52,419 nucleotides of DNA from Clostridia bacterium (GTDB taxonomy: Bacteria > Bacillota > Clostridia > Christensenellales > Aristaeellaceae), in the NCBI GenBank assembly GCA_017464305.1, contig JAFUDS010000013.1, forward strand, positions 1 through 52,419, in the 5' to 3' direction. The first letter of the stretch is position 1; every line of letters begins with the position of its first letter. Positions 16,771 through 51,026 of this stretch are shown here, in pieces. A program made the position numbers and the translations under genes. The notes under the pieces are model-generated. The model searched no databases. It had not been told where the DNA came from and saw nothing but the letters and a program-made list of their open reading frames with translations.

Positions 16771-16840
16771 ACGCGAAACAGGCGCGTGGACAAAAGGATG
16801 GGTTTATGGTATGCTTTCGCACGAAAGGGGAGGGATGGTT

Positions 16841-17722
16841 TTGGCGAAGGAAACAGAGGGAATCCGCATGGGACAGCACTGTGTCATCGGCCAGGAGGTG
16901 ACCCTGGGGGAGAATGTGACCCTGGGGCACAATTGCGTGATTGAGGATCATGTGACCATTGGGGCCAATACCTATATTGACAGCAATACAGTGATTCGCA
17001 GCGGCGTGACCATTGGCCCGGATTCGTTTGTTGGCTCCAACTGCATCATCGGCGAATATTGGATGGATTTTTGTCTGGATCGCCAAAGCCACGAGCATCC
17101 CCTGACCATTGGGGAAACGGCCTTGATCCGCAGCGGCTCCATCCTGTACGCAGGCTCCGAGATCGGCGATGATTTTCAGACCGGTCATCAGGTTACCATC
17201 CGGGAAAAGGCCCAAATCGGGCATCATGTCAGCGTGGGGACACTTTCAGATATTCAGGGGAACTGTAAAATCGGGAACTATGTTCGGCTGCACAGCAATG
17301 TGCATATTGGCCAGCTCTCCCAGGTGGATGATTTTGTCTGGATCTTCCCCTATGTGGTGCTGACCAACGATCCCAATCCGCCCTCAGACAATTTCGAAGG
17401 CGTGCATGTGCATCCCTTCGCGATCATTGCCACCGGGTCCATCGTGATGCCGGGGCTGGACATTGGGCAGGACTGCCTGGTGGGCGCCGGAGCCATCGTG
17501 ACTAAGTCCGTGGAGCCCTACGCTGTAGCAGTAGGAAACCCTGCGAAGGTGATCTCGGATGTGCGGAAGGTACGGCATAAAATCACCGGAAAGCCGGTCT
17601 ATCCCTGGCGGGAGCATTTTGATAAATATATGCCCTGGGAGAAAATTGGATTTGACGCCTGGTATGCCGGGCTGGATTTGGCAGAGAAGGAGGCTCACCA
17701 GATCGTTGATCTGGCGGAATGA
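16841..17722 (+). CDS. Left-handed beta-helix (hexapeptide) acyltransferase, FdtC/QdtC/WlbB-like
   Basis: A 293-residue protein dominated by hexapeptide repeats (IGQEVT, LGENVT, LGHNCV, IGANTY, IGPDSF and others), a left-handed beta-helix. It carries the TNDPNPPS loop and a VGAGAIVTKSVEPYAVAVGNPAK C-terminal coil common in N-acyltransferases of UDP/dTDP-amino sugars. It probably acylates the amino sugar made by the minus-strand operon, using acyl-CoA. TTG 16841 has GGAGG seven bases upstream; ATG at 16835 or 16811 is possible. Most unusual is the next pair of genes, acyl-CoA enzymes, which suggests a non-acetyl donor. Confidence 0.85.
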   Translation: MAKETEGIRMGQHCVIGQEVTLGENVTLGHNCVIEDHVTIGANTYIDSNTVIRSGVTIGPDSFVGSNCIIGEYWMDFCLDRQSHEHPLTIGETALIRSGSILYAGSEIGDDFQTGHQVTIREKAQIGHHVSVGTLSDIQGNCKIGNYVRLHSNVHIGQLSQVDDFVWIFPYVVLTNDPNPPSDNFEGVHVHPFAIIATGSIVMPGLDIGQDCLVGAGAIVTKSVEPYAVAVGNPAKVISDVRKVRHKITGKPVYPWREHFDKYMPWEKIGFDAWYAGLDLAEKEAHQIVDLAE

Positions 17723-17731
17723 GAGGGGAGC

Positions 17732-19045
17732 ATGCAGGAGATACGAACGGTCACGGTCATTGGGGTCACGGGCACCATGGGAGCCAACGTGGCGGGGATT
17801 TTTGCCTCCTTTGGAAACTGCCGGGTATACTGCGTGGGGCGAGATCTGGAAAAAGTGAAAAGGACGCTGCCGCGCATCGTGAAATCCGTTCGGGCGGATG
17901 CCATCGCGAAGAATTTGATTCCCGCGGATTTTGCTGCCCTGGAGGCCTGCGTCGCGGAAAGCGACCTGGTGTTCGAAAGCGCTGCGGAGGAAATGGCGCT
18001 CAAGCAGGCCATTGCCCGGCGAGTGGCCGCGGCTCTGCGGCCGGGGGCCTTTTCCTGCACGGGCACATCAGGGCTGTCGATTCATACCCTGGCGGAATGC
18101 TACCCGGAGGAAGCCCGGGGACGGTTCTTCGGGGTACACCTGTTCAATCCCCCCTACAGCATGCCCCTGTGCGAGCTGACGGCCACCGCCTGGTCAGACA
18201 CCCAGGCTCTGGAGGCCCTGAAGGAGTATCTGGAAAAGCGGCTGTATCGAACGGTGGTCCAGGTCAAGGATTCCCCGGCCTTCTTGGCCAACCGGATTGG
18301 CTTTCAGTTTATCAACGAGGCGCTGCAATACGCAGAGCGGTATCGGGATCATGGCGGAATTGATTATCTGGACGCTATCCTGGGTTCCTTTACTGGCCGG
18401 GCCATGGCCCCGCTGGTGACCTCGGATTTTGTGGGCCTGGATGTCCATAGCGCCATTGTCCACAATCTATATGAGAACACCCATGATTATGCCCAGGAGA
18501 GCTTTGTGCTGCCCTCCTTTGTGGAAAAGCTGATCGCGGAAAAAAAGCTGGGCCGGAAGACAGGCGGCGGCCTATATCAGCGGGTGACCTATGAAAACGG
18601 GCTCAAGCGGCAGCTGGTGTATGATATTAACGGCGGCATTTATCGGGATGTCATCCCCTATGCCTTCCCCTTTGCGGAGAAGATGCGGAGGAGCATCCAG
18701 GAAGGAAATTATCGTCAGGCCTTTGCCTGCCTGGTGACGAATCACTCCCAGGAGGCAAATATCTGCCGGCGCTTTTTGCTGAATTATATCGTTTATTCCC
18801 TGCACGCCGCAGGGGAGGTGGGATATTCCCTGCAGGCCGCGGACGACGTGATGGCGGCGGGATTCAATTGGTGCCCGCCCTTGGCGATGCTACAGGCGCT
18901 GCGCGCCGTGACGGATGTGCCGACGCTGATGCGGGAAAGCCTGCCGGAGGTGTGCGCACAGATCGATGTGGACGCGCTGCTGGCGGAGGCGGAGCCCTCC
19001 CGGTATGATTATCGGCCATATTTCAGATCGGGGAGACATGCATGA
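17732..19045 (+). CDS. 3-hydroxyacyl-CoA dehydrogenase family protein
   Basis: NAD-dependent oxidoreductase interconverting 3-hydroxyacyl- and 3-ketoacyl-CoA, 437 residues. It has the Rossmann motif GVTGTMG (11-17), catalytic-region HLFNPP (136-141), [11 protein letters not shown], and the C-terminal domain marker [10 protein letters not shown]. It is longer than simple ~285-residue 3-hydroxybutyryl-CoA dehydrogenases: after the first 3HCDH C-terminal domain about 130 more residues form what may be a second such domain. It begins nine bases after the acyltransferase gene and overlaps the thiolase start (ATGA). In this context it may generate a 3-hydroxyacyl-CoA for sugar acylation; that is inference. 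Confidence 0.88.
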
Positions 19046-20292
19046 GAGAGGTATATATTCTGGGCGGCGCGCAGACGGATTTCGAGCGCAATTGGAAAAA
19101 GGAAGGGAAGAACACCATCGCCATTCTGAAGGAAGCCATGGACGATGGGCTTTCCAGCGCGGGCGTCTCCTACGAGGAGCTGACCGCGCTTAATGAGCAA
19201 AACCGGGTGGCCTGCTTTGTGGGCAATTTTATCGCGGAAAAATATACGGAGCAGGGGCATCTGGGAGCGCTGCTGACGGAGGTGCATCCCGCCTTCTATG
19301 GGGTGCCCTCCGCCAGATATGAGGCTGCCTGCGCCTCTGGTTCCGCGGCCATCGACGCGGCCCAGACCAAGATCAAATCCGGGGATTATGATGTTTGCAT
19401 CGTGGTGGGCTGGGAGCTGATGAAAACGGTGGATTCCCGTACCGGCGGCGATTTTCTGGGCCGGGCTGCCCTGTATGAGAAGGAAGCAAAGAACATTGAT
19501 TTCCCCTTCCCGAAGCTCTTCGGCCGCCTGGCGGATGAAACCCTGCGGAAATATACCGCCCTGGATGAGGATCAATATATGAATGCCCTGGCCGCCATCT
19601 CCACCCTGAATTATGCCAATGCGAAGCGAAATCCCTTGGCCCAGACCCGGAAATGGTTCATGAGCCTGGAGCAGGCCCGGACCCGGGGGACGGAAACCAA
19701 TCCTCTGGTGGGGGGGCGGCTGGCGGCGTCGGATTGCTCCCAGGTGACGGATGGCGCCGCAGTGGTGGTGCTGTGCTCGGAAGCCTATTTGAAGGAGAAG
19801 GGCATCCAGGCAAAGCCGATCCTCCGGGGATATGGCCATCGGGTAGCGCCCATGCTGTTTGAAAAGAAAATGGCGGAGAACGCGGATTCGCTGTACATTC
19901 TCCCCTGGACCCGGCGCGCGGTGCTGGACGCCTATGGCCGCGCGGGGCTCACCGTGGCGGACATAGACGTTTTCGAAGCCCATGATTGCTTCACATCCTC
20001 CGAATATGCGGCCCTTTCCGCCTTCGGCCTGGCGGACCCGGGCAGGGAATATGAGGCGGTGGAGAGCGGGCTCATCTCCTTTGCCGGGGAAAAGCCCGTG
20101 AACCCCAGCGGCGGGCTCATCGGCTGCGGTCATCCCGTGGGCGCAACAGGGGTTCGAATGCTGCTGGACCTGTATAAGCAGGTGATGGGAAATGCGGGGA
20201 ATTACCAGGTGAAGGGCGCGCGTCACGGCATGATGCTGAACATCGGAGGCACGGCGACGACGAATTATGCCTTTGTGGTCAGCAGGGTATGA
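19042..20292 (+). CDS. Thiolase family protein (SCP2/SCPx-like acetyl-CoA acyltransferase)
   Basis: A 416-residue thiolase-fold enzyme that makes or cleaves 3-ketoacyl-CoA. The nucleophilic cysteine is in YEAACASGS (C97). The EAHDCF motif replaces the NEAF of classical thiolases, marking the SCP2-type branch. [10 protein letters not shown] supplies the catalytic His, and [12 protein letters not shown] closes the domain. Its start overlaps the dehydrogenase stop by four bases, so the two are translated together. A biosynthetic condensation feeding the dehydrogenase would give, for example, 3-hydroxybutyryl-CoA. A beta-oxidation role is unlikely, as no acyl-CoA dehydrogenase or hydratase is nearby. 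Confidence 0.88.
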
Positions 20293-25484: not shown

Positions 25485-26516
25485 TCAGTCTTTTCCTTCA
25501 ATTTGAGCCATCACTCGGACCTGCTCCGTCAGGAGGCTTTGGGTGAGGATTTCAGCCCATGACCGTTCCCGGGCCTCCGGGGAGGCGATGCAGTCCGCGA
25601 ATTTTTCCACGATCCGGAGGAATTGATCATCGCTGGCTTTGTATTCCTCCGTGTGTTGTCCCCGTGTCAAATAGACTGGGGCCTCGAAGCCGTCCGGCGC
25701 GGTGAAGATGCGGGGGGCGGTAATCAAGCCCTGATTTCCCCAGACCTCCAGCTCGCATCGATAGGCATGATCCATACCGTAGGCCAGCTGAGCGCAGCGG
25801 CCAGTGGGGTTGCGCAGCGTGATGGTGCCCGCCATGTCTACCTCATGCTTGGGCAGGAAAAGGGCTTCGGCGGAAAGCACCTCCAGCGGCCCGCCCAGCA
25901 TCTCTGTGGCCGCCTTCAGGGTATATCCTCCGCAATCCAGCAGCGCGCCACCCCCCAGGGCCTTTTGATACCGAAAGTCTGCCGCGTCCCGATGAGGAAA
26001 GCCAAAGGTAGCGCGCACGAGCCGGATATCCCCGATGGCCCCGGCCTGGATCCATTCCTGAATGTGTCGCATCTGACGATGCAGGGGAAAGCCGTAGTTT
26101 TCCACCAGGGCGACCTGGTGTTCGTGGGCCAGGGTGATCAACTCCTGGGCGTCCTGAGCCCGGGTGGTGAAAGGCTTTTCCGCCAGCACATGCTTTCCCT
26201 GCAGAATGGCTTCGCGAATCCAGCGTTCATGCAGGGCAGGGGGCAGGGCGACATAGACCGCGTCCACAGCCGGGTCCTGCAGCAGGGCGCGATAGCTTTC
26301 CCAGGTGCGCCCACCGAAATAGGCGGATAACTCCGCAGCCTTCTCCTGCTTTTTGGCCCAGAGGGGTGCAAACTCCTCGGCTGTGCCGGAGAAGCCCGTC
26401 TCCTGCTGGGTGGCGATGGACGCCCCCGCGTACTGGAACGCGGGATGCTTCAGAATCGCGGGAATCATTCGCCGTTGGGCGATGCTGGCGGTGCCAACGA
26501 TGCCAATACGAATCAT
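25485..26516 (-). CDS. Gfo/Idh/MocA-family oxidoreductase, candidate NDP-sugar 3-ketoreductase
   Basis: A 343-residue NAD(P)-dependent sugar oxidoreductase. The N-terminal Rossmann fold begins IRIGIVGTASIAQ, the catalytic-lysine motif is AEKPF (112-116), and the GGGALLDCGGYTLKAATEMLGG-like region belongs to the Gfo/Idh C-terminal domain. In 2,6-dideoxysugar pathways, enzymes of this family (SpnN, OleW type) reduce the unstable 3,4-diketo product of an NDP-hexose 2,3-dehydratase. A 2,3-dehydratase is encoded three genes upstream in the same operon, which makes that role attractive. The start overlaps the ketoisomerase gene by four bases. The cofactor and substrate are not established by sequence. 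Confidence 0.85.
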   Translation of the reverse strand: MIRIGIVGTASIAQRRMIPAILKHPAFQYAGASIATQQETGFSGTAEEFAPLWAKKQEKAAELSAYFGGRTWESYRALLQDPAVDAVYVALPPALHERWIREAILQGKHVLAEKPFTTRAQDAQELITLAHEHQVALVENYGFPLHRQMRHIQEWIQAGAIGDIRLVRATFGFPHRDAADFRYQKALGGGALLDCGGYTLKAATEMLGGPLEVLSAEALFLPKHEVDMAGTITLRNPTGRCAQLAYGMDHAYRCELEVWGNQGLITAPRIFTAPDGFEAPVYLTRGQHTEEYKASDDQFLRIVEKFADCIASPEARERSWAEILTQSLLTEQVRVMAQIEGKD

Positions 26517-26935
26517 CTAGTTGCAACCCCTTTTTCGTTCAATGCCTGCAGATAGGCAGAATAATCATCGTAGGTTTCGTTGCCGGGGGCAAAGGGCCGG
26601 TCGCAGACCGCCATCATGACACAATCCGGCGTGAAATGCCGCATGCTGCGCCAGATCATGGGGGCGATCATCAATCCCTGGGCGGGATCGTCCATGTGAT
26701 AGGTTTCCTGCTCTGTTCCATTATCCACCACTACATCGCATTCCCCGGCTACAGGAAAGAGGATGAGCCGCGTCTCCTTGGTGGCATGATCTCCCCGGCT
26801 GGCGCCCGGAGCGACCCGAGAAACAAAAAAGATCCGCTGGATGGGAAAGGGAACCTCTCGCCCCTGCTCCATGACGAAGAGGGTTCCGTCTGCCTCCACG
26901 TTCTGCTTAATGGAGATTCGCTCACAGCCCTGCAT
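26513..26935 (-). CDS. FdtA/QdtA-type cupin, dTDP-4-oxo-6-deoxyhexose 3,4-ketoisomerase-like
   Basis: A 140-residue cupin. It has VPFPIQRIFFVSRV, RGDHATKETRLILFPVAGECDVVVDNG as the strand-loop-strand core, and GLMIAPMIWRSMRHFTPD, matching the WxcM-like/FdtA family that moves the keto group from C4 to C3 before amination. Characterised members usually read HAHK at the active site with two histidines; here it is H50-A-T52-K, so the second His is a Thr. A perfect AGGAGGT lies eight bases before the ATG. It overlaps the aminotransferase by 14 bases, and that partnership is exactly that of FdtA with FdtB. Confidence 0.85.
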   Translation of the reverse strand: MQGCERISIKQNVEADGTLFVMEQGREVPFPIQRIFFVSRVAPGASRGDHATKETRLILFPVAGECDVVVDNGTEQETYHMDDPAQGLMIAPMIWRSMRHFTPDCVMMAVCDRPFAPGNETYDDYSAYLQALNEKGVATR

Positions 26936-28025
26936 AGCAATTTACCTCCTGAATCACTTTGCTGATTTCTTCCTCTTCCATGAAATCCATCATGGGCAGG
27001 GAGACGATGGTATCACAGATGGCTTCCGTCTTTGGGAAATCCCCTCGATGGTAGCCAAATTTTTCTACCATGCAGGGCTGCAGATAGGGCGGCGTTTTCC
27101 AGGCGATATCCGTGCCAACACCCCGCTCCTTCAGGAATTCCCGGAAGCCGGCCTGGTCCGCCACCCGGACGGTGAATTGATACCAGGTATGCTTGCACCC
27201 CGCCGGGGTCTTCGGCAGCTCCACCAGCGGATTGTTGATTTCCCGCAGGTAGCGCTGTGCGATGTGATCCCGATTGGCCAGCAGCGCGGGCATGTGCTTC
27301 AGCTTGACCCGCAGCAGCCCCGCCTGCATCTCGTCCAGCCGGTCGTTATATCCGATTTCGATGTTATGATAGCGATAATCGCTGCCATAGTTCCGGATTA
27401 CCTTCACTCGGTCGATGATTTCTTTTTTGCGGGATACCACCCCGCCGCCATCACCAAAGCCTCCCAGATTTTTGGTAGGATAGAAGCTGAAGAAGGAGGC
27501 GTCGCCAAAAAGACCGGTATAAACGCCCTGCCAGGGGGCAAAATGGGATTGGGCACAATCCTCAAACAGCAGGAGGCCCCGTCGCTGGCAGATTTCCAGA
27601 ATGGGATCCATTCTGGTGGCTAAACCGTACAGATGCGTCACCAGCACCGCCTTGGTTTTTTCCGTAATCGCGGCTTCAATATTGGCGGCGTCCAGCTGAT
27701 AATATTCGTCTGGTTCCACAAACACGGGCACGGCGCCGCATTGCATAATCCCCAGCATGGTGGCGATGTATCCGTTGGCCTGTACGATGATTTCATCCCC
27801 GGGTTGAATACCCGCGGCCATGAGACCAACCAGGATGGCGTCCAGCCCATTATCCACGCCTGCGCAGTAGCAGCCTTCCCCCAGGGCGACGGCGAATTCC
27901 TCCTCGAAGCTGGTGACCTCTTTCCCCAGCACATACCAGCCGCTGCGCAGCACCTCCAGAGCCTTGTCCTCGTATTCCTGCTGATACAGCCGGAAGCCTC
28001 GGCTCAGATCATTGATCGGTATCAT
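26922..28025 (-). CDS. DegT/DnrJ/EryC1 sugar aminotransferase (FdtB/QdtB-like)
   Basis: A 367-residue PLP-dependent aminotransferase that adds an amino group to a keto-deoxysugar nucleotide, probably at C3. It begins INDLSRGFRLYQQEYEDKALEV, carries the D156 that contacts the PLP ring nitrogen (LFEDCAQSH), and the Schiff-base lysine K185 in FYPTKNLGGFGDGG. Length and motifs are standard for the family. GGAGGAAAGGA precedes the ATG, and the first 17 bases overlap the 2,3-dehydratase gene. With the ketoisomerase it would convert dTDP-4-keto-6-deoxyglucose to a 3-amino-3,6-dideoxyhexose, or it could aminate the dehydratase product to a 2,3,6-trideoxy-3-aminosugar. Confidence 0.93.
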   Translation of the reverse strand: MIPINDLSRGFRLYQQEYEDKALEVLRSGWYVLGKEVTSFEEEFAVALGEGCYCAGVDNGLDAILVGLMAAGIQPGDEIIVQANGYIATMLGIMQCGAVPVFVEPDEYYQLDAANIEAAITEKTKAVLVTHLYGLATRMDPILEICQRRGLLLFEDCAQSHFAPWQGVYTGLFGDASFFSFYPTKNLGGFGDGGGVVSRKKEIIDRVKVIRNYGSDYRYHNIEIGYNDRLDEMQAGLLRVKLKHMPALLANRDHIAQRYLREINNPLVELPKTPAGCKHTWYQFTVRVADQAGFREFLKERGVGTDIAWKTPPYLQPCMVEKFGYHRGDFPKTEAICDTIVSLPMMDFMEEEEISKVIQEVNCYAGL

Positions 28026-29436
28026 CTGTCTTCCTTTCCTCCCTCGTCATGGATCGCATGGCCAACAGCATCAATAGATTCCGCAGCTGAATGTTCAGGC
28101 AGTTGTTGATCTGGGTCATGGCGTTCAGCGTACCCAGGGTGACCCAAACATATTGGTCCGGGTCGAATCCGATTTCCGCCCTTGAAAGCAGAATCACATT
28201 CCGATTCTGCTCATGATAGAACCGGCCCCCCTCCTCCGAGAGGGCCACATCCGTCAAAACGCCATCCTTTTTAGCCAGCTGGTTGAAGAAATATTGGGCA
28301 ACGCTGTCCCGGTGATGCGCCTGGCCAGGCTCCTCCTGCACGGAGGGTCCCAGCTCCGCCCCGTCGAAGCAGCCCATCTCTGGTTTTACGCGGACCAGCG
28401 CTTCATATCGACCTTCCCGGACCCGGCAGATCAGGCCGAAGGTGGCCTGCCCCAGGGCCGCAAAAAGGGGCTGATTCCACCGGGTGACCTCCCGCCCCTC
28501 AATGTTCAGTTGACAGAAAATCAGCTGGAAGGGGTATCCCTGCCGATGGCGGAAAGCGCCCTCTGCAAAGGACCAATCCGGCAGGGAAAGCAGGGGGACC
28601 AGATGACGCGCCGGAGCGTGGAACATCTTATAATTATTCATTCGAAGATAGATTTCGGTCATATCCTCATGGCGAATGGCGCGCATAGAATTCGCGAAGG
28701 GGGAAGCATATCCGCCGACGCTGTCCATCATGAATACATAGGGAAGGCAACTAAGCACCGTCCGGGTATCCATGTTGACCAGATTATCCCGCCGCATGCA
28801 TGCCCGAATTTGATCCAGGGTCATCCAGCGGTGGGAGGGCAGCTCCGGCACCTCCTCTTCCGTTTTAATGATCACATTTCGATTCCGCTTCCCCCAGAAT
28901 CGGGAGGATTGTTCCGACTGGATTTGATCCACCAGGATATCCTCCCGGCGCATGTGCTGGAACAGGGAAAGATAGGGCGGCTCCTTGCCGCCGTGGCGGC
29001 GGGTAAAGTTGCTCTTCGTGGCTTGAAGGGTAGGGGAAATCTGAACATAATTGATGTTCCCTGGCTCGATTTTTGCCTGCATTAAAAAATGCCATACCCC
29101 GCCGAACCTTCGGCACACGATGCCCAGATAGCCAATTTCCGGCTGCAGAATGATGGGCTGGGACTGCTCGTCTCCTTCCAGATCCCGGGAGACCATGCCG
29201 CCGATGCGGAAAAAGCTGCCCTCGGGATTTCGGATGACGCCCTCGGAATGATCATAGTACCAGGGCTGACAGGCTTCCAGGGGAATTTGATTGATCTGGA
29301 TATGCTGACTTTTCTTGCGGTCCTCCAGCCAGTCGAGAATCTCGGAGAAGGAGTGCAGCGGCGTTTCCTGCGCCGCGATTTCAGCGATGCCCTCAAAGCC
29401 TTGAATCCATCGACCTATGCCTGTTCTTGCTTCCAT
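28009..29436 (-). CDS. NDP-hexose 2,3-dehydratase
   Basis: A 475-residue member of the NDP-hexose 2,3-dehydratase family (TylX3, SpnO, EvaA type), which removes water from C2-C3 of dTDP-4-keto-6-deoxyglucose and opens routes to 2-deoxygenated sugars. The family's tandem-domain structure is visible. Repeat one (about 50-215) has SFFRIGG, the segment QPEIGYLGIV, FLMQAKIEPGN, QISPTLQATKSN and the HGG turn. Repeat two (about 285-450) has the equivalent FQLIFCQLN and ALVRVKPEMG. These enzymes are known mainly from antibiotic glycosylation, so finding one in a Clostridia surface-glycan locus is notable. It is nine bases downstream of the GtrB-like gene. Confidence 0.92.
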   Translation of the reverse strand: MEARTGIGRWIQGFEGIAEIAAQETPLHSFSEILDWLEDRKKSQHIQINQIPLEACQPWYYDHSEGVIRNPEGSFFRIGGMVSRDLEGDEQSQPIILQPEIGYLGIVCRRFGGVWHFLMQAKIEPGNINYVQISPTLQATKSNFTRRHGGKEPPYLSLFQHMRREDILVDQIQSEQSSRFWGKRNRNVIIKTEEEVPELPSHRWMTLDQIRACMRRDNLVNMDTRTVLSCLPYVFMMDSVGGYASPFANSMRAIRHEDMTEIYLRMNNYKMFHAPARHLVPLLSLPDWSFAEGAFRHRQGYPFQLIFCQLNIEGREVTRWNQPLFAALGQATFGLICRVREGRYEALVRVKPEMGCFDGAELGPSVQEEPGQAHHRDSVAQYFFNQLAKKDGVLTDVALSEEGGRFYHEQNRNVILLSRAEIGFDPDQYVWVTLGTLNAMTQINNCLNIQLRNLLMLLAMRSMTREERKTDDTDQ

Positions 29437-29445
29437 CGGCTTGCC

Positions 29446-30432
29446 TCACTCTTCCTGCCCGTCCATTACTTCATCAATGACGTACAGCGGGCGTTTTCGA
29501 GTTTCATCCAGATTGCGCCACAGATATTCCCCCAGCACCCCCATCATCACCATCTGGAAGCTGGAGGTTAGCAGCACCGCCAGCATGACAGAAGCCCAGC
29601 CCGCGGGAGTATGGTTGATGATTTTATCAAAGATGACATACACGCCGAAGATCAGGGAAATGAGCCCCACCAGCAGCCCGGCGCCTGTCAGGAAGCGAAT
29701 GGGCTTATGGGAAAAGACGATGAAGGTATCCACAAACAGATTGATGCGCTTGGAATAGGTCCACATGGATACACCCTTTTCCCGATCCTTTTGATCATAT
29801 TCAATGATGGTGGGCCGATAGCCCAGCCAGATCAGCTGCAGATAGATGCTGGAGTTCTTTTCCTGCATGCGCACCAGCTCCTGCGCCACTTTCCGGTCAA
29901 TGAGGAAAAAATCAAAGCCTCGTTCCGGATAATCCGGGATGACCCATTTGCGAATCAACCGATAATAGGTATCCGCGAACCAGTTTTTCAGCCGGGAGCC
30001 CTCCCGGCCGCCGCGCACGGCCAAATTGACCTTGTTCCCCTGTTGCCAGGAGGCTACCAAATGAGGAATCAGAGAAGGCGGGTCCTGCAGATCGGCGCAG
30101 ATGACGGCGATGGCCTCCCCCCGGGCGACAGAGAGCCCAGCCACCACGGCGCGAAATTCGCCGAAATTGCGGGAGAGCTTGACGATGCGAATCCGCGGAT
30201 CCTGCCGCTGCAGCCGCTGGGCCACCCCCAAGGTGTTATCCCCGGAGCCATCGTCCACCAGGATCCATTCCCAGTCGAATTCCGGCAGGAGATCAAACAC
30301 GGTGGCTTTGATTTCGGCATAGGTGTCATCCAGGTTCTTTTCGTTGAAGTAACACGGGGTGACAATGGACATCCTTTTCTTGGCACCGCCGGCGTCGAGA
30401 ACCGATGGACTCTTGGTTGTAACTGCTGGCAT
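29446..30432 (-). CDS. GtrB/DPM1-like polyprenyl-phosphate glycosyltransferase
   Basis: A 328-residue GT2 enzyme with two C-terminal membrane helices (about 245-265 and 278-305), the GtrB/ArnC layout. Nucleotide-binding motifs are LVDDGSGDNT (59-68) and CADLQDPP, and the acceptor loop has KWVIPDYPERGFDFFLIDRK. It should move a sugar from a nucleotide to undecaprenyl phosphate at the inner face, giving the donor used by outer-face GT-C enzymes such as the GtrII-like protein. AAAGGAG lies nine bases before the ATG at 30432; M21 is an alternative start. It is the first gene of the minus-strand operon. Confidence 0.92.
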   Translation of the reverse strand: MPAVTTKSPSVLDAGGAKKRMSIVTPCYFNEKNLDDTYAEIKATVFDLLPEFDWEWILVDDGSGDNTLGVAQRLQRQDPRIRIVKLSRNFGEFRAVVAGLSVARGEAIAVICADLQDPPSLIPHLVASWQQGNKVNLAVRGGREGSRLKNWFADTYYRLIRKWVIPDYPERGFDFFLIDRKVAQELVRMQEKNSSIYLQLIWLGYRPTIIEYDQKDREKGVSMWTYSKRINLFVDTFIVFSHKPIRFLTGAGLLVGLISLIFGVYVIFDKIINHTPAGWASVMLAVLLTSSFQMVMMGVLGEYLWRNLDETRKRPLYVIDEVMDGQEE

Positions 30433-30489: not shown

Positions 30490-30518
30490 ATGCTACCATA
30501 AACGGCGGGGTTTTTCAA
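30490..30518 (-). promoter_or_regulatory. Promoter of the minus-strand aminosugar operon
   Basis: On the minus strand, TTGAAA (30518-30513), a 17-base spacer and TAGCAT (30495-30490), about 55 bases before the GtrB-like ATG. The gap 30433-30755 (323 bases) between the two divergent operons holds this promoter, the opposing one at 30610-30638 and a small possible reading frame. Confidence 0.55.
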
Positions 30519-39248: not shown

Positions 39249-39728
39249 ATGCACATTGCGATTATTGCCGTAGGCAAAATGAAGGAAAAGCCCTACCGTC
39301 AAATGGCGGATGAGTACCTGAAACGGCTCAGCCGATTCGGCCGATACGAGGAAATCGAGATTTCCGACCTGCCGGAGCGGGAGGGCGCCTCCCTGGCGGA
39401 GGAGGAGGGAATCAAAACCCGGGAAGGGGAGGAGATGCTCCGGCGGCTCCGCCCGGGAGACCGGGTCATCGCCCTGACCATCCCCGGTCGGCAGCGAACC
39501 AGCCCGGAGCTGGCCCGGGAAATGCAGGAGGCGAAGAACCAGGGCATCGGGCGGCTGGTGTTCCTCATCGGCGGCAGCCTGGGCCTGGGAGAAAACGTGC
39601 TGCGCCGGGCGGAGGGGGAGATGAGCATGAGCCAAATGACCTTCCCCCATCAGCTGGCCCGGGTCATGCTGCTGGAGCAGCTGTATCGGGCGGAAAAGAT
39701 CAATGCGGGAGAAAGGTATCATAAATAA
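39249..39728 (+). CDS. rlmH: 23S rRNA pseudouridine-1915 N3-methyltransferase RlmH
   Basis: A 159-residue SPOUT-class methyltransferase that uses S-adenosylmethionine to methylate pseudouridine 1915 in helix 69 of 23S rRNA. It begins MHIAIIAVGKMKEK, has the SAM-binding knot motif LIGGSLGLG and ends with the conserved RVMLLEQLYRAEKI and YHK. Length and motifs are exactly those of the family. It starts nine bases after the last glycan gene, so it may be read from that operon, and the secreted RNase gene begins one base after its stop. Confidence 0.97.
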   Translation: MHIAIIAVGKMKEKPYRQMADEYLKRLSRFGRYEEIEISDLPEREGASLAEEEGIKTREGEEMLRRLRPGDRVIALTIPGRQRTSPELAREMQEAKNQGIGRLVFLIGGSLGLGENVLRRAEGEMSMSQMTFPHQLARVMLLEQLYRAEKINAGERYHK

Positions 39729-39729
39729 C

Positions 39730-40449
39730 ATGAAGAAGCTTTGGAAAGGTTTACTGGCCCTGGCCCTGGTGCTGATCCTGCTGGGCGGCGATCTGGGGAC
39801 GGTTTTGGGCCGGGCGGAGAGCGCGCAGGAGCTGGCTCCCCAGGGAGTCACCCTGCGCCAGGGGACCAATGGTTCGGTCGCGGAGCAGCTGAAGGAAGCC
39901 GCGCTGTCGGCGAAGAATAACAAGAAAAAGAAGAATACCCCCACGCCCCGGGTGACGGCTTCGCCCACCCCAAAGGCGACAGCGACGCCTAAGCCTACCA
40001 AGACCCCGAAGCCAACGAAGACGCCCAAACCTACCAAGACCCCCAAGCCCACGGCAACGCCAGCCCCAGCCGGGCCGACGGCCACGCCGGAGCCCGAGGG
40101 GCCCATCATTGAGCCCCAGAGCATTGCGGACTATCTGTTTTCCCACGACATGCAGCTGCCGGAGAACTTTATTACCAAGAAGCAGGCCCAGGCCCTGGGA
40201 TGGGACAGCAGCTATAATTACGTCAGCGATGTGGCCCCGGGCAAGAGCATCGGCGGGGATTACTTTGGCAATTATGAGGGCAAGCTGCCCCAGGGCAAGG
40301 GAATTACCTATCACGAGGCGGACTGCTATTACACCAAGGGCAAGCGGAACGCCTACCGGGTCATTTATTCCACGGAGGGCAGGGCCTGGTATACGGAGGA
40401 TCACTACAATACCTTTACGGAGCTGTTTCCCTTTACAGAAGGGAAATAA
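39730..40449 (+). CDS. Secreted barnase-family ribonuclease with Thr-Pro linker
   Basis: A 239-residue secreted RNase. It has a signal peptide (about 1-27), a basic stretch, a Thr-Pro-Lys-rich linker (about 70-125) and a C-terminal barnase domain (about 130-235). The domain aligns by eye along its length with Bacillus barnase, including ITKKQAQALGW, VAPGKSIGGD, HEAD and EDHYNTF. All expected catalytic residues are present: K150, E196, R206, R210 and H225 correspond to K27, E73, R83, R87 and H102. ATG 39730 starts one base after rlmH, with GGAGAAAGG upstream. I see no barstar-type inhibitor gene in the window. Confidence 0.93.
   Translation: MKKLWKGLLALALVLILLGGDLGTVLGRAESAQELAPQGVTLRQGTNGSVAEQLKEAALSAKNNKKKKNTPTPRVTASPTPKATATPKPTKTPKPTKTPKPTKTPKPTATPAPAGPTATPEPEGPIIEPQSIADYLFSHDMQLPENFITKKQAQALGWDSSYNYVSDVAPGKSIGGDYFGNYEGKLPQGKGITYHEADCYYTKGKRNAYRVIYSTEGRAWYTEDHYNTFTELFPFTEGK
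39937..40104 (+). repeat. Thr-Pro-Lys-coding tandem repeat in the RNase linker
   Basis: Short imperfect repeats of codons for TPKPTK encode a flexible wall-spanning linker. Similar CCN-ACN-CCN-AAG tracts occur in the lipoprotein (about 41036-41060 and 41281-41391) and in the SH3 protein (about 49640-49700). They could expand or contract by replication slippage. Confidence 0.8.
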
Positions 40450-40521: not shown

Positions 40522-42303
40522 TTGAATCAACAGGGAAAGAGAAAATACGCGGCGCTGGCGGGCCTGCTGGGGCTGATGCTGGCGCTATCCGGATGCTACA
40601 TTGCGCCGGATGATATCAACGATGTGGGCAATAACCAGACCAGCAGCGGGAATCTGCCTTTCCAAACCCTGGCGCCCACCGCCACGGTGGAAGTGACGCC
40701 GGATACGGTGGTAGTGGAAACCCAGAATTTATATAATTATCAGAATGGGGGCCAGATTCAGACCACCAATTCTGTGCCGGAGGAGAAGGAGAATCAGGCT
40801 ACGCCCACGCCCCAGAGCGGCAGTACCGGCTGGAGCGATTGGGGCACGGTGCAGGGGGTTACGGAGCCACCCGCCGGGGTGACGGTATCCGTTTTGCCGG
40901 GCATTACCCCGGAGTCCAGCACGATTATTCTTTCCACCCGGACGCCGGATCCAGAGGGGCAGGGCAGCAGCGCAGGCACCAGTGAAGCGGCTACGCCCCG
41001 GCCCACGGTGCAGATCATTACCGCGCCGCCGGCCACCCCCACGCCAACGCCCAAGAGCCTCCAGCGGGGCTTCACCAATTCGGAGGAGGTCAAGGCGCTG
41101 CAGAAGCGGCTAAAGGCGCTGGGATGGTACACCGGGTCAGCGGACGGGGACTTCGGCCCCGCCACGGAGGCGGCGGTGAAGGCCTTCCAGAAGGCCAATG
41201 GCCTAACCGCGGATGGCAAAGCAGGGGAGAAGACCCTGGAGAAACTGAATTCCTCCTCGGCCATTACCAAGAAACAAGCTACCGCGACGCCGACGCCCAA
41301 GCCCACGGCGAAACCGACTGCCCGGCCCACGGCCACCCCGAAGCCCACGCCCCGGGTGACCGCTACCCCGCGGCCCACGGCGACGCCGAACCTGAGCAAG
41401 GATTATTACCTACAGCTCGGCGCCAGCGGCCAGAAGGTTCGGACGCTGCAAAACCGCTTAATCCAGCTGGGATGGCTGGGGGGCAAGGCCACAGGTACCT
41501 ATGACGAGGCGACGGAGGCGGCGGTGCGGGCCTTCCAGAAGAAGACCAAGGGCCTTTGGGAGGATGGCATCGCCGGGCCGGATACCCTGCAGGCCATCTA
41601 TTCGGACAGCGCGGCCCGGGGAACGACGGTGGCCGCCAGCACAGGGGAAACCCTGGAATGGGGCAGCGAGGGCGACGCGGTGCGAACCCTGCAGAAGCGG
41701 CTGAAGGAGCTGGGCTATCTGGAGGGCACGGTGGATGGCAGCTTTGGCGCGGCCACGGAGGAGGCGGTGCGGGCCTTCCAGCGCCGAAACGATCTGAAGG
41801 TGGATGGCAAGGCGGGCACGGCGACCCTGAACAAGCTGTACAGCAGCGACGCCATTTCCAATTCCTCCCTGCGGGAGGGGGATTCCGGCAGCGAGATCAA
41901 AACCCTGCAAACCGCCCTGAAGCGGCTGGGGTATTACACGGGGGCCATCGATGGCAAGTATGGCACCACCACCTCGGACGCGGTGCGGGCCTTCCAGATT
42001 CAGAACCGGCTGACCCCGGTGGATGGCGTGGCGGGCAGCGCCACCTTGGCGAAGCTTTACGCGCCGGATGCGCAATCGGCGGAGGATGCCTCCGTGGATT
42101 ATGACACCGCCCGCCTGGGAGACCGGGGGGAGCTGGTGGTGGAGATTCAGGATTGCCTGGTGGAGATGGGCTATCTGGAGGATATCACCGGAGTGTACGA
42201 CAGCGCCACGGAGGCAGCGGTGAAGGCCTTCCAGCGGAAAAACGGCCTGACGGCGGATGGCGTGGCCGGGGGGAGGACCCTGGAGGTGCTCTTCGGCTAT
42301 TGA
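40522..42303 (+). CDS. Lipoprotein with five peptidoglycan-binding (PG_binding_1) repeats
   Basis: A 593-residue surface lipoprotein. The signal peptide ends in the lipobox LALSGC with C25 as the lipidation site. A low-complexity region (about 26-180) is followed by five PG_binding_1 domains at about 182-245, 295-362, 378-442, 449-514 and 528-593. Each has the LQxxLxxLG(Y/W)..G..DG.(F/Y)G..T..AV.AFQ pattern. Thr-Pro linkers separate repeats one and two. It has no catalytic domain, so it probably anchors or scaffolds at the wall. The TTG start at 40522 follows GGAGAGGTGG. Confidence 0.92.
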   Translation: MNQQGKRKYAALAGLLGLMLALSGCYIAPDDINDVGNNQTSSGNLPFQTLAPTATVEVTPDTVVVETQNLYNYQNGGQIQTTNSVPEEKENQATPTPQSGSTGWSDWGTVQGVTEPPAGVTVSVLPGITPESSTIILSTRTPDPEGQGSSAGTSEAATPRPTVQIITAPPATPTPTPKSLQRGFTNSEEVKALQKRLKALGWYTGSADGDFGPATEAAVKAFQKANGLTADGKAGEKTLEKLNSSSAITKKQATATPTPKPTAKPTARPTATPKPTPRVTATPRPTATPNLSKDYYLQLGASGQKVRTLQNRLIQLGWLGGKATGTYDEATEAAVRAFQKKTKGLWEDGIAGPDTLQAIYSDSAARGTTVAASTGETLEWGSEGDAVRTLQKRLKELGYLEGTVDGSFGAATEEAVRAFQRRNDLKVDGKAGTATLNKLYSSDAISNSSLREGDSGSEIKTLQTALKRLGYYTGAIDGKYGTTTSDAVRAFQIQNRLTPVDGVAGSATLAKLYAPDAQSAEDASVDYDTARLGDRGELVVEIQDCLVEMGYLEDITGVYDSATEAAVKAFQRKNGLTADGVAGGRTLEVLFGY

Positions 42304-48319: not shown

Positions 48320-48410
48320 GGTAAATGTATAGTGTTCCATAACGGAGGGGAGAGCGGAAAATAAAAGTTACAAAAAATGAATTAAATATTACAAAAAGAT
48401 GAAAATCTTG

Positions 48411-48439
48411 TTGACAAATGGTGCGCGGTCGCGTAAAAT
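48411..48439 (+). promoter_or_regulatory. Strong sigmaA promoter of the SH3/peptidoglycan-binding gene
   Basis: TTGACA (48411-48416), a 17-base spacer and TAAAAT (48434-48439), preceded by an A/T-rich stretch (48358-48410) that could be an UP element. Transcription should begin near 48446, giving a leader of about 140 bases. Confidence 0.85.
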
Positions 48440-48461
48440 ACGACTGTGTATCAGTCTGTCA

Positions 48462-48506
48462 GCAGGATTTTTCTTTTTCCAGCGGGGAAAAACGAAAAGA
48501 TCCTGC
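48462..48506 (+). promoter_or_regulatory. Long leader hairpin in the SH3/peptidoglycan-binding mRNA
   Basis: A 19-pair stem with only two single-base bulges: bases 48462-48480 pair with 48486-48506, closing a five-base AGCGG loop. It lies about 16 bases after the predicted start site. A second, weaker GCCGG/CCGGC stem follows near 48530-48553. The structure may stabilise the message or control translation. I recognise no known riboswitch class. Confidence 0.7.
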
Positions 48507-48584
48507 GTCCCGTATACAGGGGAGCCCTGCCGGAAGGGCGTCTTCCCCGGCAAGATTCCAGCCATGGAGATGGAGGTCGAGATT

Positions 48585-51026
48585 ATGTCCGATAGGAAAA
48601 AGTGGATTCGGCGGTTGGCCCTGATGACTGTACTGCTGGCCATGGTTTGTAGCCTGGCGGCAGCCGCCCTGAGCTATCCTTTCCTGACCACGACGACGGA
48701 TTCCGTTCGCCTGCGGCGCAGCGCGTCCAAAACGGCCACCATCCTGACCAATGTGCCCGCCGGGGCACAGATCGAGGTGCTGGAGAAGACGGGCAGCTTC
48801 TATAAGGTGAAGTACAACGGCACCACGGGATACGTCCAGAGCGATTATGTGGTGACCGATCAGGCCGCCATCGTTGTCGTGACGCCGGAGCCCCTGGAAA
48901 CCGTCAGCTCCTATCCCTATACCACCGTGACCCGGGAATCCGTGAACCTGCGGCAGAGCAAATCCGTCCGGGCCACCCTGCTGAAAAAGATTCCCCAGGG
49001 TGCGGAGATCATCGTCCGGGCCAATAGCGGAACCTGGGCGGAGGTGGAATACAAGGGCATTACCGGCTATGTGAAGAATGAGTATATCGTCCTGAAGGAA
49101 GTCAAGAAGGTAAAGGTAACCCCCACGCCTACCCCGGTGCCCACCCTGAGCCCCGAGGAAAGTGCGGCAGAATATCTGGTGCTGGAAAAGGGCATCGAAG
49201 GGGCGGAGGTCAAGGCCCTGCAGGAAGCCCTCATCGAGCTGGGCTATTTGAAGGGTTCTGCGGATGGCAAGTTCGGCGCCGCCACGGAGAATGCGGTGCT
49301 CCTGTTCCAGCAGGCCAATGATTATCCCACCACGGGGGTCATGGACGCCAACGCCCAGGCCTTCCTCTATTCCGGAAAGCCGAAGGCCAGCAACGGAAAG
49401 GCCACCAAGGTGAGCACGGTGAGCCCCGTGGCCGGTGCGACGCTGAAGCTGAACGGTACTGGCGACGCGGTGGGCGAATTGCAGCAGCAGTTGAAGGACC
49501 TGGGGTATTACACCGGGGAGATTAACCGCACCTTTGATACGGCCACCAAGAAGGCGGTCATCGCCTTCCAGAAGAAAAACGGAATTACCGCGGACGGCAT
49601 CGTGGGTGAAGCGACCCAGAAGGTGCTGGCCTCCGGAGAAGCGCTGCCCGCCAGCGCTACGCCGACGCCCAAGCCCACGGCCACGCCCACCCCTGCGCCG
49701 ACCTACACGGTGCCGGCCTATACCCTGCGCCGGGATGACAGCGGCGACGATGTCAAGACCCTGCAGAGCCGGCTGAAGGAGCTGGGATATTTCAAGGGCC
49801 GGGTGGATGGCAAGTTTGGCGCCCAGACGGCTTCCGCCCTGAAAGCCTTCCAGACGGATCATGGCCTGGAGGCGGACGGGGTAGCAGGCAAGGGGACCTA
49901 CGCCGTGCTTTTCGCGGAGGATACCCTGGCGAAGGACGCCACGCCTACCCCCGTGCCGGAGGTGACGCCGGCCCCGGGAGACGAGGAAAGCGGCATCCCC
50001 ACGGAAGCGAATTATGAAACCCTGCGGAAGGGTACCATGAGCGCCGATGTGGCCATGATGCAGCAGACGCTGATCGATTTGGGATACCTGACCGGGGAGC
50101 CGGATGGCAACTACGGCACCGCCACGGAAAAGGCGGTTCGCGCCTTCCAGAAGACCAATGGCCTGAGCGTGGATGGCACCGCCGGCAGCGAGACCCTGAG
50201 CCAGCTGTATTCCATCGACGCGAAGCAGGCCACGGCGAAGGCTACGCCTACCCCCGCTCCCAGCGGAAACAAAGTGGCGGTCACGGTTACCGCCGCGCCG
50301 GATGACGGCACCCTGCGGCAGGGCTCCACGGGCAGCGAGGTCAAAGCGCTGCAGGAAACCTTGATTCAGCTGGGCTATTTGACCGGCAAGGCGGATGGCG
50401 TCTTCGGCGCCAAGACCTACGCGGCCCTGGTGGCTTTCCAGAAGGCCAACAAGCTGACGGCGGACGGCATCGCCGGGGTGAAAACCCTGAAGAAGCTGGA
50501 CAGCTCCAGCGCGGTGGCGGCTACCACGAATGACAGCGCTACGGCTACTGCTACAGCGGCTCCCGTGAAGGTGGCCTCCAGCGGCAGTGTGACTCCTTCG
50601 GCCAGCCGGGTGCAGTATGCCAACTGGTATACCACCACCAAGGCCATCTGCCGGAAGTATCCTTATGCTACGGTGTACGATTATGAAACCGGCATCTCCT
50701 GGCAGGTGCATATCTTCTCCCTGGGCGCCCACGCGGACTATGAGCCCCTGACGGCGGCGGACACCTCCAAGATGGAGAAGGTTTTCGGCGGAAATACCTG
50801 GAACCCCCGGGCGGTGTGGGTTGTCTTTGCGGATGGCAGCATCTACATGGCCTCCACCCACTCCATGCCCCACAGCGTGCAGCATATTACGGACAACAAT
50901 TTCGCCGGCCATTCCTGCCTGCACTTCCCCCGGACCCAGGCCCAGGTGGAAGCCATTGGCCCCTATGCCACCTCCCATCAGAACACCATCGACGCGGGCT
51001 GGGCGAAGACGCAGGCGATGAAATAA
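48585..51026 (+). CDS. Secreted SH3b/peptidoglycan-binding protein with unusual HxCxH C-terminal domain
   Basis: An 813-residue secreted wall protein. A signal peptide (about 1-29) is followed by two bacterial SH3 domains (about 30-92 and 110-172), then five PG_binding_1 repeats (about 196-264, 285-352, 379-445, 478-544, 576-640) joined by Thr-Pro linkers. The C-terminal domain (about 676-813) has HSMPHSVQH (759-767) and GHSCLHF (775-781), with H776, C778 and H780, as in a metal or thiol active site. I do not know this domain's name or activity. ATG 48585 has GGAGG eight bases upstream; earlier in-frame starts encode an unlikely leader. Confidence 0.9.
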   Translation: MSDRKKWIRRLALMTVLLAMVCSLAAAALSYPFLTTTTDSVRLRRSASKTATILTNVPAGAQIEVLEKTGSFYKVKYNGTTGYVQSDYVVTDQAAIVVVTPEPLETVSSYPYTTVTRESVNLRQSKSVRATLLKKIPQGAEIIVRANSGTWAEVEYKGITGYVKNEYIVLKEVKKVKVTPTPTPVPTLSPEESAAEYLVLEKGIEGAEVKALQEALIELGYLKGSADGKFGAATENAVLLFQQANDYPTTGVMDANAQAFLYSGKPKASNGKATKVSTVSPVAGATLKLNGTGDAVGELQQQLKDLGYYTGEINRTFDTATKKAVIAFQKKNGITADGIVGEATQKVLASGEALPASATPTPKPTATPTPAPTYTVPAYTLRRDDSGDDVKTLQSRLKELGYFKGRVDGKFGAQTASALKAFQTDHGLEADGVAGKGTYAVLFAEDTLAKDATPTPVPEVTPAPGDEESGIPTEANYETLRKGTMSADVAMMQQTLIDLGYLTGEPDGNYGTATEKAVRAFQKTNGLSVDGTAGSETLSQLYSIDAKQATAKATPTPAPSGNKVAVTVTAAPDDGTLRQGSTGSEVKALQETLIQLGYLTGKADGVFGAKTYAALVAFQKANKLTADGIAGVKTLKKLDSSSAVAATTNDSATATATAAPVKVASSGSVTPSASRVQYANWYTTTKAICRKYPYATVYDYETGISWQVHIFSLGAHADYEPLTAADTSKMEKVFGGNTWNPRAVWVVFADGSIYMASTHSMPHSVQHITDNNFAGHSCLHFPRTQAQVEAIGPYATSHQNTIDAGWAKTQAMK

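Follow-up and report, generated by a model that had tools for sequence, protein, structure and literature searches.

The window analysed here is the whole of contig C11 (52,419 nucleotides) of a Clostridia bacterium genome of 2.53 Mb in 51 contigs. Five genes on its minus strand, between positions 25485 and 30432, encode a GT2 glycosyltransferase, a nucleoside diphosphate (NDP)-hexose 2,3-dehydratase, a DegT-family aminotransferase, an FdtA-family cupin and a Gfo/Idh enzyme. The distances between them along the coding strand, from the GT2 gene to the Gfo/Idh gene, are +9, −17, −14 and −4 bases. A first-pass annotation, made from the sequence alone, had placed these genes here and read them as an antibiotic-type deoxysugar operon inside a surface-glycan locus. 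Pfam matches, structure matches and the neighbouring genes supported the five families, the operon and the surface-glycan setting. The surroundings in the window contain a flippase, several GT2 proteins, and GtrII, DUF2142 and GT87 proteins. None of the 39 window proteins scanned was a polyketide or peptide synthase.

Table 1. Genes of the putative deoxyamino sugar operon and the QdtC-like gene of the same window.
Feature	Positions	Strand	Match
GT2 glycosyltransferase, PgfS/ArnC-like (polyprenyl-phosphate type), opening the operon	29446..30432	-	Pfam Glycos_transf_2
Predicted NDP-hexose 2,3-dehydratase, EvaA-like, tandem PF03559 domains	28009..29436	-	Hexose_dehydrat 3.8e-118
DegT-family C3-sugar aminotransferase (predicted), QdtB-like, motifs altered (SHF, WKTPPY)	26922..28025	-	DegT 3.4e-92
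FdtA-family cupin: His49 present, Thr for His51, Arg at 95	26513..26935	-	PF05523 2e-32
Gfo/Idh enzyme, sugar 3-ketoreductase (3rbv) nearest	25485..26516	-	Gfo/Idh 1.8e-23
QdtC-like N-acyltransferase, possible final step	16811..17722	+	QdtC 1.7e-88

The GT2 protein matched the PgfS (5.2e-57) and ArnC-type (1.3e-36) models of NCBIfam, both under the cut-off. A Pfam scan showed no dedicated 4-ketoreductase in the operon; no search was made for one elsewhere in the genome. Upstream of the GT2 gene, the minus strand has a promoter-like site (30490-30518) with a TG before its second hexamer (9 of 12 matches); sites of this TG type numbered 9 in the region, with 4.8 expected.

The dehydratase scored 392.6 bits against PF03559 (cut-off 25) over two tandem stretches, and its best match among solved structures was the EvaA 2,3-dehydratase (1.2e-80). 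A passage of PMC8987622 gives Glu139 and Glu190 as the catalytic residues of EvaA. Both align with Glu in the window protein (positions counted by hand), and both catalytic Glu motifs were present in each of the 15 dehydratases of an alignment that included it. With family and catalytic residues matching, the protein is a predicted NDP-hexose 2,3-dehydratase.

The first-pass annotation had asked for relatives with the same gene set. A scan of GTDB genomes with the dehydratase as the single query protein, which reaches close relatives only, returned 10 loci. Four of these (L023 to L026) carry the genes for the dehydratase, the aminotransferase and the cupin together, referred to below as the trio. 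L023, from a metagenome-assembled genome (MAG) of a Clostridia bacterium of roe deer omasum, has all five genes in the same order, 96-100% identical to those of the window (96-99% for the trio). The five genes also stand in this order in L024, from an uncultured Clostridia, where the identities are 76% for the GT2 protein, 73% for the dehydratase, 87% for the aminotransferase, 80% for the cupin and 58% for the Gfo/Idh enzyme. An order common to the window, the near-identical L023 and the diverged L024 is not due to chance. In L025 and L026, both from Solobacterium MAGs, the trio genes overlap and their products are 60% (dehydratase), 86% (aminotransferase) and 66-68% (cupin) identical to those of the window; no GT2 or Gfo/Idh match was found in the stretches fetched. 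The other six loci carry the dehydratase and a homologue of the window reductase, without an FdtA match (L028 is just 4 kb long, and the reductase gene of L029 lies 3.2 kb away).

Among sampled genomes, PF03559 was found in 2 of 200 of the family, 2 of 395 of the order and 5 of 398 of the phylum, with the window genome counted each time; one of the five phylum matches was broken and below the cut-off, and one of the two family matches ends at a contig end. The four complete sampled loci (L034 to L037) again have a dehydratase and a reductase homologue. Leaving aside a truncated sixteenth locus (L033), there are thus 15 dehydratase loci including the window: five with the trio, and ten with a homologue of the reductase (38-44% identity to that of the window, in all ten) and without the trio cupin. 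A GT2 match lay in the fetched stretch of eight of these ten, and in that of neither L028 nor L034. Four of them (L027, L032, L035 and L036) have a distant DegT aminotransferase, 23-27% identical to the window's, adjoining the dehydratase and reductase genes, and are perhaps operons for 4-amino-2,4,6-trideoxy sugars.

In the dehydratase tree the five trio members formed one clade (support 0.995) and the other ten Firmicute sequences another (0.979). All 15 were split by a single long branch (1.000) from eight actinomycete dehydratases, all of which came from plasmid records. That the dehydratase was recently acquired from actinomycetes was rejected because of this split, and for the same reason the description of the operon as antibiotic-type is misleading. 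A dehydratase match was present in 85 plasmid records, 83 of them actinomycete, and most of the nine such regions opened contain polyketide or peptide synthase genes. Among the open-licence papers listed, none had a title or abstract dealing with 2,3-dehydratases in glycan loci of Clostridia or other Firmicutes, which is weak evidence.

The Solobacterium loci are informative about the reductase. In searches of whole genomes, the window Gfo/Idh protein had a 96% match in the L023 genome and a 58% match in the L024 genome, and no close relative in the two Solobacterium genomes, where the best match was partial (3.7e-13, 29%). Without further use by the aminotransferase, the cupin or an unknown reductase, the dehydratase product would lead nowhere there. 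The retention of the trio in Solobacterium without a close relative of the reductase suggests that this product probably goes to the aminotransferase or the cupin. The two MAGs are close relatives of each other, and may be incomplete. In L025 (9452-19546) the trio lies between rbfA and genes for WXG100 (one match just under the cut-off) and FtsK/SpoIIIE proteins, which resemble a type VII secretion locus; L026 has open reading frames (ORFs) similar to those around the L025 trio.

The cupin scored 112.2 bits against PF05523 (cut-off 23) and matched wild-type FdtA (2pa7) with 1.6e-20. The roles of FdtA residues are taken here from passages of a review (PMC2943079), not from the original paper. 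These describe a histidine cluster of His49, His51 and His95, in which His49 and His51 are reported as strictly conserved. They also link position 95 of the family to the outcome at C4 (Arg for retention, His for inversion), and name His51 as catalytic on the basis of mutagenesis, tentatively as the shuttle of a proton between the C3 and C4 oxygens (PMC2943079). All five trio cupins have His, Thr and Arg at positions 49, 51 and 95. In 39 comparison rows of the FdtA family the three residues were HHR in 29, HNK in six, HNV in two and HHH in two. These rows represent 38 distinct genes (L065 and L116 are the same) and include three from Streptomyces plasmids, a nearly identical pair (L095 and L099) and one doubtful family member (L080); the two copies of the window gene (L083 and L103) and L081, which did not match the query, are excluded. 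With 31 of the 39 rows HxH and eight HxN, the His49/His51 rule fails for the Pfam family as a whole. The loss of His51 as a trait of the trio alone was rejected for the same eight rows, while Thr at this site was found in the trio only, among the rows compared. Cupins with Asn at the His51 site and Lys or Val at 95 include those of L072, L073, L082, L107, L108, L112, L114 and L115; Asn was present at this site in none of the five solved chains listed for one HxN cupin. The trio cupins grouped with the HxN cupins with moderate support (0.917), in a group that includes a long-branch row. The name FdtA-type ketoisomerase given by the first-pass annotation is right as a family match and is not supported as a function, since all five trio members lack one of the two histidines for which strict conservation is reported.

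Against solved structures, the aminotransferase matched QdtB first (1.9e-90). The second and third matches were unassigned or otherwise named; 2oga, listed as Transaminase and presumably DesV, was fourth, and 5u1z (WlaRG) was fifth. QdtB acts at C3 according to a passage of PMC2943079, and DesV and WlaRG are named as C3-aminotransferases in part of PMC7725333. At an HYPxPxH-type motif, which was defined in this analysis and is not a published rule, all five trio aminotransferases have Trp-Lys and all 30 other rows covering the site have Tyr-Pro. The trio sequences read SHF and [AS]WKTPPY in five of five, where the comparison rows have HG (31 of 31) and the Tyr-Pro; these counts exclude four rows from dehydratase-reductase loci that resemble 4-aminotransferases. 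The Lys of the FYPxKNLG-type motif, which we take to be the pyridoxal phosphate lysine, was present in all five.

In two trees, of 33 and of 40 sequences, the trio aminotransferases fell among FdtA-coupled ones, apart from two dehydratase-coupled actinomycete enzymes, a placement consistent with the cupin supplying their substrate. They grouped (0.988) with three aminotransferases from loci with HxN cupins (L100, L102 and L112), on a long stem (0.62); the sister of the trio among these three had a support of only 0.322. The next relative (0.984) comes from L110, a locus with a canonical cupin, and the aminotransferases of the HNV-cupin loci L107 and L115 were placed elsewhere. The genomes of L100, L102 and L112 belong to the samples searched for PF03559, and no match was found in them. 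L100, which is from the genus of the window, and L102 are both of Clostridia. They resemble the window in a cupin without His51 (HxN, Lys95) and in aminotransferases among the nearest, and the cupin-aminotransferase pair of L100 adjoins a GT2 gene whose product is 76% identical to the window's. They differ in that their aminotransferases retain Tyr-Pro, and no homologue of the dehydratase or the reductase was found in the stretches fetched. It is plausible that a cupin-aminotransferase pair without His51 gained a dehydratase, and that its sugar site changed.

The best structure match of the Gfo/Idh enzyme was a sugar 3-ketoreductase (3rbv, 9.8e-59), which we take to be KijD10; the next different protein gave 3.9e-21. 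The sites altered in the mutant chains 3rc7, 3rc9 and 3rcb correspond to a Tyr and a Lys in the window enzyme, and from these chains we infer that the conserved Tyr and Lys are catalytic. The enzyme is thus 3-ketoreductase-like and is predicted to reduce at C3 rather than at C4. The three trio-linked reductases formed one group in the reductase tree (0.982).

Family searches of the genome located rmlB (494 bits) and rmlA (464 bits) adjoining each other on contig C29 and gave no match to either family on C11, so the precursor genes lie outside the window, as had been expected. C30 and C38 hold additional rmlB matches above the cut-off; C30:136000-152000 and C38:1-12000 bear the same rmlB and neighbouring ORFs, as a duplication or an assembly artefact. 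C30 also carries a canonical HxH FdtA gene followed by an aminotransferase gene of its own, and the L023 and L024 genomes each have a canonical HxH FdtA too. The trio is therefore not the sole candidate route to a 3-amino sugar in these three genomes.

The QdtC-like protein, which the first-pass annotation did not mention, is the only strong match of QdtC type in the window genome, and its gene is some 8 kb away from the operon. The protein shares His134, Asn159 and Asp160 with QdtC and has Gly at 123 and Gln at 141 (residues as listed in part of PMC2943079). In the L024 genome there was no intact good match, the best being partial with in-frame stops (5.3e-12), which leaves the QdtC-like enzyme unsupported as an essential part of the system. 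It could acylate the product of the operon or that of the canonical FdtA-aminotransferase pair on C30. Genes for the QdtC-like acyltransferase, a 3-hydroxyacyl-CoA dehydrogenase and a thiolase lie end to end on the plus strand (16811-20292). This set could make a 3-hydroxybutyryl group and attach it to an amino sugar, a product that is a guess.

From the observed gene content, families, catalytic residues and conserved order we propose a sequence of steps, with its stereochemistry, product and destination. Tentatively, and at somewhat less than an even chance, we read the operon as making one NDP-activated 3-amino-2,3,6-trideoxyhexose by a linear route and placing it on undecaprenyl phosphate for a surface glycan. 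RmlA and RmlB, encoded on C29, would supply deoxythymidine diphosphate (dTDP)-4-keto-6-deoxyglucose. The EvaA-like enzyme would remove the C2 hydroxyl to give a 3,4-diketo-2,6-dideoxy sugar, the Gfo/Idh enzyme would reduce C3, the FdtA-like cupin would shift the C4 keto function to C3, and the QdtB-like enzyme would aminate C3. The GT2 protein would then transfer the sugar to the lipid carrier, and the nearby membrane proteins would use the lipid-linked sugar outside the cell. With reduction at C3 followed by the 3,4-keto shift, no C4-ketoreductase is needed. The linear order employs every gene and leaves a free 4-hydroxyl; we place it before its rivals as a cautious first choice. The first-pass annotation had left open two sugars or one. 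The Solobacterium trio without a close reductase relative is our main reason to favour one, and a single sugar of the 3-amino-2,3,6-trideoxyhexose kind is probably the better answer.

Several points weigh against the linear order. The cupin lacks His51, so its predicted ketoisomerase step is unproven. The trio-linked reductases group weakly (0.874) with three actinomycete reductases, apart from the remaining Firmicute ones; the reductase reaction may thus differ between the two kinds of Firmicute locus, and the trio-linked reductase may be of separate origin. With the Gfo/Idh matches of Solobacterium being weak, C3 reduction there would need another enzyme, unless parts of the genomes are missing from these MAGs. 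rmlB gave a strong match in one Solobacterium genome (G959) and none in the other (G960). Solobacterium has no FdtA-family match other than the trio cupin, and the argument from a second FdtA, given below, does not reach there. The window genome itself is 68.6% complete.

A single sugar could also arise in the order proposed for daunosamine, by dehydration, direct C3 transamination of the diketo sugar and C4 reduction, with the cupin as an epimerase or helper. The C4 reduction would be made by the Gfo/Idh enzyme or, in Solobacterium, by an unlinked reductase. We consider this order rather unlikely. It is the one proposed for angolosamine and daunosamine (PMC9452638, PMC10054333, in the parts dealing with these sugars), with the 2,3-dehydratase, 3-aminotransferase, 4-ketoreductase and N-methyltransferase assigned for angolosamine (PMC9452638); a passage of another review places the epimerase of daunosamine first (PMC11676270). 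Both sugars are of the 3-amino-2,3,6-trideoxy kind (PMC9452638, PMC10054333), and a product of this type was therefore wrongly called undescribed in the first-pass annotation. The absence from the cupin of His51, the tentative proton shuttle of FdtA (PMC2943079), also fits direct transamination, as does the exchangeable nature of the reductase gene, 58% identical in L024 and without a close relative in Solobacterium. However, the nearest solved relative of the reductase is a sugar 3-ketoreductase, the aminotransferase stands apart from the two dehydratase-coupled actinomycete enzymes compared, and the cupin would require an unproven function.

Two sugars, which we hold to be less likely again, would mean a 2,6-dideoxy sugar from the dehydratase and Gfo/Idh enzyme and a 3-(acyl)amino-3,6-dideoxyhexose from the cupin and aminotransferase, perhaps with the nearby QdtC-like enzyme. 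Precedent exists in Streptomyces sp. CL7, where a tylosin-type macrolide cluster on a plasmid (L085) holds an FdtA-family gene, an aminotransferase, a dehydratase and a Gfo/Idh gene close together, as in the window. By analogy with tylosin, this cluster presumably makes two sugars. Unlike in the window, rfbABC and a hydrolase gene stand between its two gene pairs, and it has an HxH FdtA. The ten loci with a dehydratase and reductase homologue and no trio cupin fit two sugars too, as does the pair of L100, which stands beside nearly the same GT2 with no dehydratase. In aclacinomycin, moreover, one dehydratase product is proposed to go either to amination by AknZ, for daunosamine, or to the 3-ketoreductase AknQ, for other sugars (PMC10054333, in its part on this compound). 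Yet the Solobacterium loci keep the dehydratase together with the aminotransferase and cupin in genomes that gave no close match to the reductase, and the trio aminotransferase and cupin carry changes absent from dehydratase-free pairs. The window, L023 and L024 genomes, which combine the trio with the Gfo/Idh gene, each have a separate canonical FdtA, and the operon has no dedicated 4-ketoreductase. That the operon serves a secreted antibiotic-like metabolite, as the actinomycete plasmid records might suggest, is very improbable given the flippase, GT2, GtrII, DUF2142 and GT87 proteins, the absence of synthases among the proteins scanned, and the separate clade of the Firmicute dehydratases.

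The linear route to one sugar shares features with two known kinds of pathway. Like those of angolosamine and daunosamine, as far as the cited passages describe them, it would combine a 2,3-dehydratase and a C3-aminotransferase toward a 3-amino-2,3,6-trideoxyhexose. Those pathways have a separate 4-ketoreductase, and for daunosamine a 3,5-epimerase as well, and serve antibiotics, whereas the window has a cupin and a 3-ketoreductase-like enzyme in a glycan locus. The FdtA-FdtB and QdtA-QdtB-QdtC systems (Fuc3NAc and Qui3NAc of S-layer glycans, in the review passages cited above) are matched by the FdtA-family cupin, the QdtB-like and QdtC-like proteins and the surface-glycan setting. Compared with them, the window adds the 2,3-dehydratase, encoded between the GT2 and aminotransferase genes, and the reductase, and it has Thr for His51, an altered aminotransferase motif and Gln141 and Gly123 in the QdtC-like protein.

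Elsewhere in the window, a 248-amino-acid protein (39703-40449) matches the barnase-type Ribonuclease family in its C-terminal part, and two long proteins (40522-42303 and 48399-51026) have repeated peptidoglycan-binding domains, the second with SH3 domains also.

Beyond the window, it is possible, though doubtful, that the trio of Clostridia and Solobacterium is a three-gene cassette for a ketoisomerase-dependent route, without a C4-ketoreductase, to a 3-amino-2,3,6-trideoxyhexose of the cell surface, in which the dehydratase joined an older cupin-aminotransferase pair lacking His51. We would suggest, with similar reserve, that the cupin of such a cassette shifts or epimerises a keto sugar without His51, alongside a re-shaped C3-aminotransferase. 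The Thr at the His51 site and the lost Tyr-Pro of the aminotransferase had not been seen in the first-pass annotation. As judged from the sequences, a known kind of deoxyamino sugar pathway appears here in a little-studied setting, and the surprise is the co-conserved pair of altered enzymes, the cupin and the aminotransferase. The window and L100, of the same genus, offer a clean comparison pair: in both, a cupin-aminotransferase pair adjoins a GT2 gene that is nearly the same, in the window with the dehydratase and in L100 without it. If the proposal is true, highly deoxygenated amino sugars would be a native feature of surface glycans of gut Firmicutes and not just an antibiotic speciality, and the FdtA family would include a group with altered catalytic chemistry.

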